Assembly (NCBI RefSeq): GCF_041154485.1 | Contig: NZ_AP028669.1 | Span: 3,100,001-3,164,000, forward strand | DNA: 64,000 nt | Direction of reading: 5' to 3' | Origin: Variovorax sp. V93 | GTDB taxonomy: Bacteria > Pseudomonadota > Gammaproteobacteria > Burkholderiales > Burkholderiaceae_C | In this document: positions 44,136 to 46,187 of the stretch, piece by piece | Position numbering within the stretch: the first letter of the stretch is position 1 | Layout: every line of letters starts with the position of its first letter | The notes under the pieces: generated by a model | The model's input: only the letters and a program-made list of their open reading frames with translations | Databases searched by the model: none | Told to the model about the DNA's origin: nothing | Position numbers and translations under genes: made by a program

Positions 44136-46187
44136 TCAATCGGGTGGAGAGATCTCGATGTGAAGCTTGTGGAGTTTTCGGTACAGGGTGTTGCGGCTGA
44201 CATCGAGCGCCTTGGCGACGTTGCTCACGTTCCAGCGATGCTGCTCGAGCATCTGCAGCAGCACCTGCCGCTCGTTGGCCTGGATCGGGTTGAGTTGCTT
44301 GATGGCGGGCGCCGCATCGGTCTGCGCTGCGTCCGCGGCCGTATCGGCCGGTTCGGAGGACGCTGCAGCCGCATGGGCCAGCGCGGGCAATGGCGACGGC
44401 GCCGTGCGCACCGCCAGCGAAGGCAGGTGCTCCCGCGTGATGGTCTTGCCGTCGGCCAGCGCGGCGGCGCTGCGCAGCACGTGGCGCAGCTGCCGCAGGT
44501 TGCCGGGCCATGAATAGGCCATGAGCAGGCGCTCGGCCTCTTCGCCGAGCCGGCTGTCGCTGCCGCCTTCGTCCTTGAGCACGTCGTGGATCAGATCGCG
44601 CTTGTCCGTGCGGTCGCGCAGCGCGGGCAGGTCGAGCTCGATGCCGGCCAGGCGGTAGTAGAGGTCTTCGCGGAAGCGGCCTTCGCGCACCAGGCTCGGC
44701 AGGTGCTGGTGGCTCGCGCTCACGAGCTGGAAATCCACCGGATGGGTGTCCTCGGTGCCCAGCGGCGTGACCTGGCGCTCGTCGAGCACGCGCAGCAGGC
44801 GGGCCTGCAGCTCCAGTGGCATGTCGGCGATCTCGTCGAGGAACAGCGTGCCGCCATCGGCCTGCAGGATCTTGCCGCGCCGGCCGCTGCGCTGTGCGCC
44901 GGTGAAGGCGCCGGCCTTGTAGCCGAAGAGTTCGGATTCGATCAGCGTCTCGGGCAGGCTCGCGCAATTGACCGCGACGAAGGCACCCTCGGCATGCGGG
45001 CTGCTCTCGTGGATGGCGCGCGCGAACACTTCCTTGCCCGATCCGGTCTCGCCGCACAGCAGCACCGGGGTTCGGCGCGCGACCACGCGCCGCGCGGTAT
45101 CCAGGTGCGCGACGAGCCGCGCGTCCTTGAAGGTGCGAACGCTCGGTGCACGCGCGGCCGCTGGCCGCAATGGCGCACGGAAGGACTCGGCACCTGTCTC
45201 TGCCGACATCGAAGCCGTGCCTGCGCCGGCCACGCGCGCACGCGCCGGCGTGGCGGCATCGGAGGCCGGCCGCCGCGCCACCGCGAAGAAGCGCAGCGCC
45301 GCATTGGCCCGGTAGGCCACCACCGGATGGAATGAAGAAGAAAGGCTGCGCTGGACGATGTCTTCGAGCGAGGTCTGGAACAGGTCGTCGATGCGCTGCG
45401 TGCGGATCTCGTCCATCGACTGAAGGCCCAGCTGGAACAAGGCGCTGCGGTTGGCCGCAAGAATGCGTCCATCGTCGCCGACGGCGAGCTTGCCCTCGTG
45501 CAGCGTGTAGACGAATTCGGGCCGGCTGTGGAAGTGCAGCGGATGCGCATTCGAGAAGCGCTTGTCGATGAGCCGGTTCTCGATCATGCGCGCCGTCATG
45601 CCCAGCAGCACCAGCACGTGCTGCTGCATGAGGCTGGAGCGGCTGGTCACGTCGAGCACCGCGATGATCTCGCCGGACGGATCGAACACCGGCACCGCCG
45701 AGCAGGTGAGCTGCGTGAAGTGGCTGAAGAAATGCTCTTCGCGCCGCACGGAGATCGGGTGCGCCGCAGCCAGGCAGGTGCCCATGCCGTTGGTGCCGGC
45801 CTCGGCCTCGCCCCACATGCCGCCGGCGCGCAGGCCCATGGGCTCCGCTTCGGCGGCGAACTCGGGCGAGGACACCATGTGCACGATCACGCCATCGGTA
45901 TCGGTCAGCACCACGGCGGACTCGGCGTCGGCGAGTTGCTGGTAGAGCGTGGTCATCTCGTAGCGCGCGCACTCGATGACGTCGGCATGCTGGTTGCGCC
46001 GGCTCTGCAGCGCAGACGATGCAATGACCACTGGTTCGCGCGGGCGGCCCGGATCGAGCTGGTACTGGTTCAGGCAGCGGCTCCACGAGCGCGTGACCAG
46101 ATCATTGCCCTCTTCGTGAAAGCCTCGCCTCACCACGTCGAGCACACGGTCAGCGTGTCGATCGCCTTGCCTCAGCGTCAATGTCAT
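44136..46187 (-). CDS. AcoR-type sigma54-dependent transcription activator
   Basis: A 683-residue enhancer-binding protein. Residues about 70-200 are a GAF-type sensor ([34 protein letters not shown]), about 205-290 a PAS-like domain ([17 protein letters not shown]), about 350-590 the AAA+ domain with Walker A GETGSGKE at 369-376 and the sigma54-contacting GAFTGA at 416-421, and the C-terminus a Fis-type helix-turn-helix ([20 protein letters not shown]). In AcoR relatives the GAF domain senses a small metabolite such as a ketone, aldehyde or alcohol. It lies among H4MPT genes and could drive the GG-N10-GC promoters seen upstream of five C1 operons. The target link is inference. Confidence 0.92.

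Follow-up and report, generated by a model that had tools for sequence, protein, structure and literature searches.

The locus raises the question whether a sigma54-dependent activator, encoded within a methylotrophy cluster, controls the surrounding C1 genes as one regulon. The window, which is the whole stretch of 64 kb that was analysed, belongs to a Variovorax genome of 6.74 Mb in two contigs. It carries a lut-like ABC operon, xoxF, genes for a cytochrome c, MoxR and a VWA protein, pqq-like genes, a MoxY/MoxX-like pair, fhcBADC, H4MPT-related genes, folB, fae, mch, mtdB and mptG. The name lut-like is that of the earlier note on this DNA and is based on gene content. Domain matches (PQQ dehydrogenase, FhcB/A/D/C, FolB, Fae, Mch, MtdB, MptG-like) confirmed that the proposed targets are C1 genes; FhcB itself scores under the NCBIfam cut-off, and the MptG-like product is a GHMP kinase-domain protein. 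The Rfam scan returned tRNA only. RpoN has one match in the genome, to its activator-interacting domain (E 3.9e-19). The relevant genes are located as follows.

6947-8698, minus strand: first genes of the lut-like operon (ABC ATPase 7985-8698, YVTN-type beta-propeller 6947-7945)
9221-11047, plus strand: xoxF, PQQ methanol/ethanol dehydrogenase
25999-29063, plus strand: MoxY/MoxX-like histidine kinase and LuxR-type response regulator
32334-37013, minus strand: fhcB-fhcA-fhcD-fhcC, formylmethanofuran dehydrogenase/formyltransferase (fhcB start uncertain)
44136-46187, minus strand: GAF-PAS-AAA+(GAFTGA)-Fis sigma54 activator, AcoR/DhaR-type bEBP (683 aa)
46350-46919, plus strand: folB-like gene in divergent orientation to the activator (uncertain start: ATG 46350 or TTG 46398)
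46997-53741, minus strand: mptG-mtdB-orf5-mch-CitG-like-fae operon (mptG start uncertain)

The activator frame spans 44136-46274 on the minus strand, and the start was set at 46187. The product had been described as an AcoR-type activator with an intact GAFTGA loop; Pfam matches (Sigma54_activat, 1.8e-63; GAF, 6.5e-10; AAA_lid_14; HTH_8/Fis) and the GAFTGA motif, read directly in the sequence, bear this out. The protein follows the AcoR/DhaR-type domain plan of a GAF (plus PAS) sensor, an AAA+ domain with GAFTGA and a C-terminal Fis helix-turn-helix, and the Pfam search found no receiver (Response_reg) domain in it. The nearest solved structure to the sensor half is DhaR(N). A profile search matches the N-terminal half to this GAF-PAS sensor (4lrx) at E 7.9e-11. 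A comparison of predicted folds gives the same match at E 8.7e-13, with a TM of 0.46 to the query; the model used for it has a mean pLDDT of 71.7, and its residues 126-140 are below 50. The PAS domain is assigned by the match to DhaR only. AcoR, DhaR and EatR serve acetoin, glycerone and ethanolamine genes, respectively; the activator shares their domains and differs from them in being linked to C1 genes. It scores below the NCBIfam equivalog cut-offs for DhaR (280 of 551 bits) and PrdR (282.8 of 795 bits), and an EatR-annotated plasmid protein is 42% identical to it. Variovorax beijingensis T529 encodes a protein that is 99% identical, and the own genome encodes three further proteins of the type (matches at E 1e-60). 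A quick tree, which gave long-branch warnings, separates the activators from six own-order paralogs with a support of 100. Two Variovorax sub-clades are located at different places in this tree, with some weakly supported forks between them; their separation would be consistent with repeated acquisition of the cluster.

The earlier note had picked out by eye five GG-N10-GC sites with TTGC at -12, each upstream of a C1 transcription unit. All five are present at the positions claimed.

8763-8777, minus strand: candidate sigma54 -24/-12 site of the lut-like ABC operon, AGGCACGGAATTTGC
9117-9131, plus strand: candidate sigma54 -24/-12 site of xoxF, AGGCATGGATGTTGC
37028-37042, minus strand: candidate sigma54 -24/-12 site of the fhcBADC operon, TGGCACATGGCTTGC (perfect TGGCAC-N5-TTGC)
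46306-46320, plus strand: candidate sigma54 -24/-12 site of folB, TGGCCTGCATTTTGC
53722-53736, minus strand: candidate sigma54 -24/-12 site of the mptG-mtdB-orf5-mch-CitG-like-fae operon, CGGAACGGCCCTTGC

At both fhcB and mptG the predicted leader is very short. A further candidate, ATGGCACGGATCGTGAT upstream of fae, was rejected as a sigma54 site as it has no GC at -12. All promoter scans reported here are scans for sigma54 patterns. Within the 64-kb window, TGGCAC-N5-TTGC with up to two mismatches shows no excess (79 matches against 98.6 expected). A scan with a sigma54 matrix, which was typed from recall of the published consensus and whose main result is repeated matrix-free by the GG-N8-TTGC counts below, found 24 places scoring at least 10 against a shuffled mean of 12.7 (range 7-29). 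Of these 24 places, 18 are not within 250 bp upstream of the 26 listed starts, and four outscore all five promoter sites. The missing excess and the better matches elsewhere, one of them in afpA and conserved together with the peptide PGIVFA, would suit a reading in which the five sites are chance matches and transcription starts at sigma70 promoters. As single-genome scans do not single out the five sites, comparison across genomes was used.

One hundred Variovorax genomes were sampled, of which 87 have a completeness of 90% or more and a contamination of 5% or less. Twenty-eight carry fae, and the comparison used the own genome and the 27 others, with a stretch of 560 bases per start (500 of them upstream). 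Of the 28 sets, 27 yielded the lut gene (LutE) and 25 yielded FhcB. For xoxF, folB and mptG the claimed or corresponding site is the top-scoring upstream match in 28/28 genomes each. The same holds for lut in 27/27 loci found, 22 of which share the own aligned site; the other five (L051-L055) have a site of other sequence at another distance. At fhcB, too, the site is the top-scoring match, in 25/25 loci found. In the aligned upstream regions the sites are conserved islands amid diverged flanks. As a control on spacing, the pairs that persist in 80% or more of the aligned rows were counted over the five upstream regions: 6 of 18 GG-N10-GC pairs do so, as compared to 1 of 104 pairs at spacings of 7, 8, 9, 11, 12 and 13. 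The six are the five named sites and one pair at -283 in the lut region; two more fhcB pairs fall just under the threshold (18/23; the fhcB row of this control holds 23 Variovorax loci, fewer than the final 25). A blastn check found the core kept in 21/21 (lut), 16/16 (xoxF), 20/20 (fhcB), 19/21 (folB) and 19/21 (mptG) of the loci covered.

Conservation alone is not proof, since matches within genes can be held by codons. Three of ten non-promoter matches, located inside genes, keep the core in more than 90% of the Variovorax loci covered. The best-scoring match in the window (43665-43681, minus strand) is the one inside afpA that tracks PGIVFA; its wobble bases show almost no variation inside Variovorax, unlike outside, and this pattern leaves a small chance of a real internal site in the genus. 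A match upstream of a HisA-like gene (38207-38223) scores higher than the promoter sites and was rejected: its core is kept in 16/21 Variovorax loci covered, with a mean score of -0.3, and outside Variovorax GG-N8-TTGC occurs there in 1/38 loci.

Loci outside Variovorax were drawn from a one-genome-per-species scan. The scan gave 79 named activator loci, the best 79 of 325 relatives, to which six plasmid loci were added and from which 15 labelled Variovorax were removed. The 325 relatives were found by peptide patterns including EMTTL and GTNGMGT, so the conservation of these residues is biased. For each gene, the loci retained are those that hold it with sufficient upstream sequence, and close relatives among them were not thinned; some named loci are metagenome bins whose assignment may be wrong, L075 with its label Desulfovibrionaceae being an example. 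Within 150 bp of the start, GG-N8-TTGC is found upstream of folB in 50/60 loci (shuffled mean 2.9, maximum 7), mptG in 44/53 (2.1, maximum 6), fhcB in 30/30 (1.7, maximum 6) and xoxF in 5/11 (0.7, maximum 3). At the same loci, 10 of 11 control genes are inside the shuffled range; DUF447 exceeds it (13/59 against 2.8, maximum 8). With the matrix (score of at least 10, 250 bp) the counts are 52/60 for folB, 28/53 for mptG, 7/11 for xoxF and 29/30 for fhcB. Four controls lie above the shuffled 1.4-2.9%: Fae (12/55), DUF447 (11/59), afpA (7/57) and Act (6/68). The sites in Azoarcus KH32C are ATGGCACGTCGCTTGCG (xoxF) and GTGGCCCGGAGCTTGCT (mptG), and the mptG site in Caballeronia is TTGGTACACCTTTTGCC.

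The comparison of intergenic regions in relatives, which the earlier note had proposed as a check, found the sites kept, and of the outcomes that it had named as speaking against the regulon, the two on sequence (no conservation in relatives, equal frequency in random DNA) turned out in favour of it. Its statement that such sites are not expected by chance does not hold within the window alone and does hold across genomes. With position-specific conservation under a spacing control, and with ten of the eleven control genes near chance counts, the reading of chance matches served by sigma70 promoters becomes extremely unlikely.

An activator of this class would be expected to bind upstream of its promoters. 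Short regions upstream of -24 were searched de novo for motifs, each gene separately, and one dyad, ACAC-N-GTGT, was recovered independently at mptG (GTGACACagTGTCCC, 52 regions), fhcB (GC.ACACaGTGT.GC, 21 regions) and lut (GACaCAgAGTGTtTC, 10 regions). The folB regions gave another motif, CACCcGGtGAAACaC. The elements in the window are the following.

8884-8898, no strand assigned: dyad GACGCAAAGTGTCTC in minus-strand reading, candidate shared activator-binding site (UAS) between lut and xoxF
8971-8982, no strand assigned: second conserved box CGGGATTTCCCT between lut and xoxF
37098-37112, minus strand: dyad GCAACACTCTGTCTC, candidate UAS of fhcB
46257-46272, plus strand: conserved element CACCCGGTGAAACACC between folB and the activator, with at most one half-site
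53802-53816, minus strand: dyad GTGACACATTGTCCC, candidate UAS of mptG

The lut/xoxF dyad is degenerate in the own clade and reads GACACAGAGTGTTTC in a distant Variovorax clade. ACA-N3-TGT is located within 105 bp of -24 in 45/52 mptG regions (0.3 in shuffled sequence) and, at fhcB, in 25/25 Variovorax and 27/30 other regions (0.1 shuffled in each). Within 170 bp it is found in 5/10 lut regions (0.2 shuffled) and 6/21 xoxF regions (0.4 shuffled), and at folB in just 3/67 regions of 110 bp (0.6 shuffled). The upstream dyad looked for in bEBP targets is therefore strong at mptG and fhcB, weak at lut/xoxF and missing at folB. Measured from the transcription start that the -12 element predicts, the dyad centre is roughly 90 bases upstream at fhcB, 100 at mptG and 140 at lut, and such distances are normal for an enhancer site. 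A composite pattern of dyad, 55-85 bases and promoter has four matches in the own genome, two of them being the fhcB and mptG promoters to which it was fitted, and the reversed control has none. Over 28 genomes it gives 110 matches against 9 in the control, with some of the matches recurring elsewhere. A guessed activator motif, GRSACANNNTGTYYC, was rejected (five own-genome matches, none of them a window site). GNNACACNGTGTNNC with one mismatch was unspecific, with at least 153 forward matches against at least 118 in the control among the matches listed.

The link between activator and C1 genes was examined through gene distribution. Activator matches at E up to 1e-180 come from exactly those 28 of the 100 Variovorax genomes that carry fae, and at this threshold none was found in the 72 genomes lacking fae. 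At least three of twelve C1 genes are present in the flanks taken at 72 of the 79 named loci, a count that is a lower bound for loci that are the best 79 of 325; among loci not labelled Variovorax the figure is 58 of 64. A folB gene was found at 71 loci, and at all 71 the pair is divergent, with folB within 700 bp of the activator. Plasmids of Azoarcus and Paraburkholderia have a similar annotated gene order, and the activator and C1 genes adjoin across Burkholderiales and Rhodocyclales. The earlier note had called the regulon local; the sigma54 regulon stands, and the word local does not, as the activator, the divergent folB and the sites recur across both orders. The link is not universal. 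In a draw of 200 genomes from the order, 22 have fae, 10 have the activator (E up to 1e-160) and 8 have both, so that 14 of the 22 with fae are without the activator at this threshold and 2 of the 10 with the activator are without fae. A Verminephrobacter locus (L079) has the activator and none of the twelve C1 genes sought in the 20 kb around it.

The promoters could be sigma54-dependent and answer to another activator, for example a nitrogen or carbon regulator, with the neighbouring gene coincidental. The three further proteins of the type in the own genome and the folB site without the dyad leave room for this. Against it, the activator and fae occur in exactly the same genomes among 100 of Variovorax, the folB-activator pair is divergent at every locus where folB was found, and three C1 promoters have the dyad in common; we consider this reading very unlikely. 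The protein assignments, the promoter sites and how well they are kept, the dyad, and the linkage and co-occurrence computed here are best explained by a conserved sigma54 C1 regulon run by this activator; we give this reading a probability of roughly 0.85, judged from the sequences. The proposal of a sigma54 regulon for methanol oxidation and H4MPT is supported by this conservation, and the comparison with random DNA is in its favour. The model is weakest at folB, which has the site but no dyad.

Control could also be split, with sigma54 and the activator acting on mptG, fhcB and folB, and a MoxY/MoxX-like system acting mainly on xoxF and lut. The histidine kinase/response regulator pair at 25999-29063 has a weak MoxY domain (LapD_MoxY_N, 2.4e-4, below the Pfam cut-off) together with HisKA_3, Response_reg and GerE. 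The box at 8971-8982 is possibly the site of another regulator, and both the dyad and the sigma54 site are weaker at xoxF outside Variovorax. Against such a split, the sigma54 site is kept at every xoxF and lut locus found in Variovorax, and outside Variovorax 7/11 xoxF loci, including Azoarcus and Rhodocyclaceae, have sigma54-like sites scoring at least 13.5 (one of the seven, L127, is a dehydrogenase of just 38% identity). We regard split control as rather unlikely. The pair and the box do leave room for dual control of xoxF and lut, and sigma54 may share control of these two with the MoxYX-like pair. The single regulon remains our preferred reading.

MxaB, MxbDM, MxcQE, MoxYX/FlhRS and PedS2R2 serve methanol/lanthanide control of XoxF/MxaF-type or related alcohol dehydrogenases. 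They are two-component systems, and we know of none that uses sigma54. The activator differs from the response regulators MxaB, MxbM and MxcE in that a receiver domain was not matched in it. PedS2-PedR2 is also named in PMC12997753. Closest among the known systems is MmoR, which works with sigma54 at the operon for soluble methane monooxygenase. In the accessible text of PMC5874634, MmoR is a sigma54 activator tied to C1 oxidation, has a GAF domain in Methylocella and Methyloferula, and controls methane oxidation from within the mmo operon, whose sigma54 promoter consensus is YTGGCACGrNNNTTGCW. Unlike MmoR, the activator here has H4MPT genes as neighbours, and its targets would be methanol oxidation and H4MPT. 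No earlier report of sigma54 control of xoxF or H4MPT genes was found among the matches listed in the open-access literature (preprints excluded, few subscription journals). Neither sigma54 nor RpoN is mentioned in the accessible part of a review of formaldehyde metabolism (PMC8879981), and methanol, methylotroph and formaldehyde are not mentioned in that of a sigma54 regulon comparison (PMC12316311). We found no mention of C1 genes in the accessible parts of two papers, one on RpoN in Aquincola and one on sigma54 in Paraburkholderia phymatum. The machinery belongs to a known kind, and the regulon and the activator subfamily appear to be undescribed.

The signal can be approached through the more distant relatives. 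In Aquabacterium olei a relative of the activator adjoins dimethylamine monooxygenase genes, a pathway that yields formaldehyde, and a distant relative in Thiodictyon is near formate dehydrogenase genes. These contexts point to formaldehyde or a later C1 intermediate, and not methanol, as a possible common factor. Our guess for the GAF signal is one of the formaldehyde type, with methanol possible. Cys138 of the GAF domain is invariant in 86/86 orthologs and 3/3 intermediate relatives, and the position is Ala or Thr in six own-order paralogs. As a unique marker of the C1 clade it was rejected, since an own-genome paralog (L158) also has it, and Cys138 is for this reason only a lead; the structure model is of too low quality in that stretch to position the residue. 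Known proteins that react to formaldehyde are EfgA/TtmR and FrmR, TtmR being MarR-type and FrmR acting by release of repression (accessible parts of PMC8879981 and PMC6540204), and EfgA is a formaldehyde sensor that arrests growth (title of PMC8153426). None of the three is described as a sigma54 activator in these parts of the three papers. We propose tentatively, with more doubt than confidence, that the activators are a separate bEBP subfamily and the C1 master switch of Burkholderiales/Rhodocyclales, sensing formaldehyde or a close C1 carbonyl, possibly via Cys138.

For the regulon as a whole we infer the use of sigma54 in vivo, the binding of the dyad by the activator, the direction of control and the inducer. 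The activator would bind ACAC-N-GTGT about 90-140 bp upstream of the predicted mptG, fhcB and lut/xoxF starts, and its GAF domain (perhaps also its PAS domain) would sense a C1-related signal. ATP hydrolysis by the activator would then open RNA polymerase-sigma54 complexes waiting at the GG-N10-GC promoters. At folB it might act via a different element, or via half-sites such as GAAACAC in 46257-46272. One regulon would thus be switched on, comprising the XoxF methanol dehydrogenase, the lut-like transporter, H4MPT/cofactor synthesis (mptG, folB) and formaldehyde oxidation (fae, mtdB, mch, fhc). On sequence evidence the wiring is old, being kept across the Burkholderiales and Rhodocyclales that carry both activator and cluster.

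The switching of methylotrophy in facultative Burkholderiales, including plant-associated bacteria, appears to be little described. According to the accessible part of PMC7065363, DNA from a pea rhizosphere community enriched with methanol had a higher abundance of Variovorax, the genus was labelled in pea rhizospheres given 13CO2, and it is said to include methanol growers. A single sigma54 switch, consisting of the activator, the dyad and five promoters, would make this control directly testable and gives a tool for regulon searches; the promoters may be of use in C1 biosensors. If the activator is indeed a C1 master switch of the kind proposed, then methanol oxidation, cofactor synthesis and formaldehyde removal would rise together only when the toxic intermediate appears.

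The intergenic region between lut and xoxF holds a conserved element apart from the sigma54 sites, and a two-component pair is present elsewhere in the window.

Window 8971-8982: box CGGGATTTCCCT, lut/xoxF intergenic region, conserved in Variovorax.
Window 25999-29063: histidine kinase and LuxR-type response regulator, adjoining pqq-like genes.
Window 37013-37042: fhcB sigma54 site to start.
Window 43665-43681: best sigma54-like match in the window, within afpA.

In the comparison of lut/xoxF upstream regions, the box is conserved in both Variovorax sub-clades and is separate from the sigma54 sites; it could be a candidate site for the MoxX-like regulator. 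The histidine kinase of the pair shows a weak match to the MoxY periplasmic domain.

The -12 element of fhcB lies only 14 bases from the likely ATG, and comparison of fhcB loci places the site over or beyond the homologous start in some relatives; hence, the leader may be very short or the start may be later. The match inside afpA is conserved in all 27 Variovorax loci, probably owing to the encoded peptide PGIVFA.

The folB–activator pair also occurs away from fae. In one Variovorax genome (G066; loci L029 and L095, contig 28), approximately 53 kb separates fae from the pair, and the folB sigma54 site is retained despite this distance.

Locus L079, 9869-11920: activator of Verminephrobacter aporrectodeae, 78% identical.

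None of the 12 C1 genes sought was found near this activator in the 20 kb fetched, and it is perhaps an orphan regulator.

The activator relatives of Aquabacterium (L058, L139, and L141) form a single group in the tree. In L058, the annotated one of the three loci, the relative adjoins dimethylamine monooxygenase and aminomethyltransferase genes, a hint of a methylated-amine branch; L139 additionally carries mch, mtdB, and mptG.
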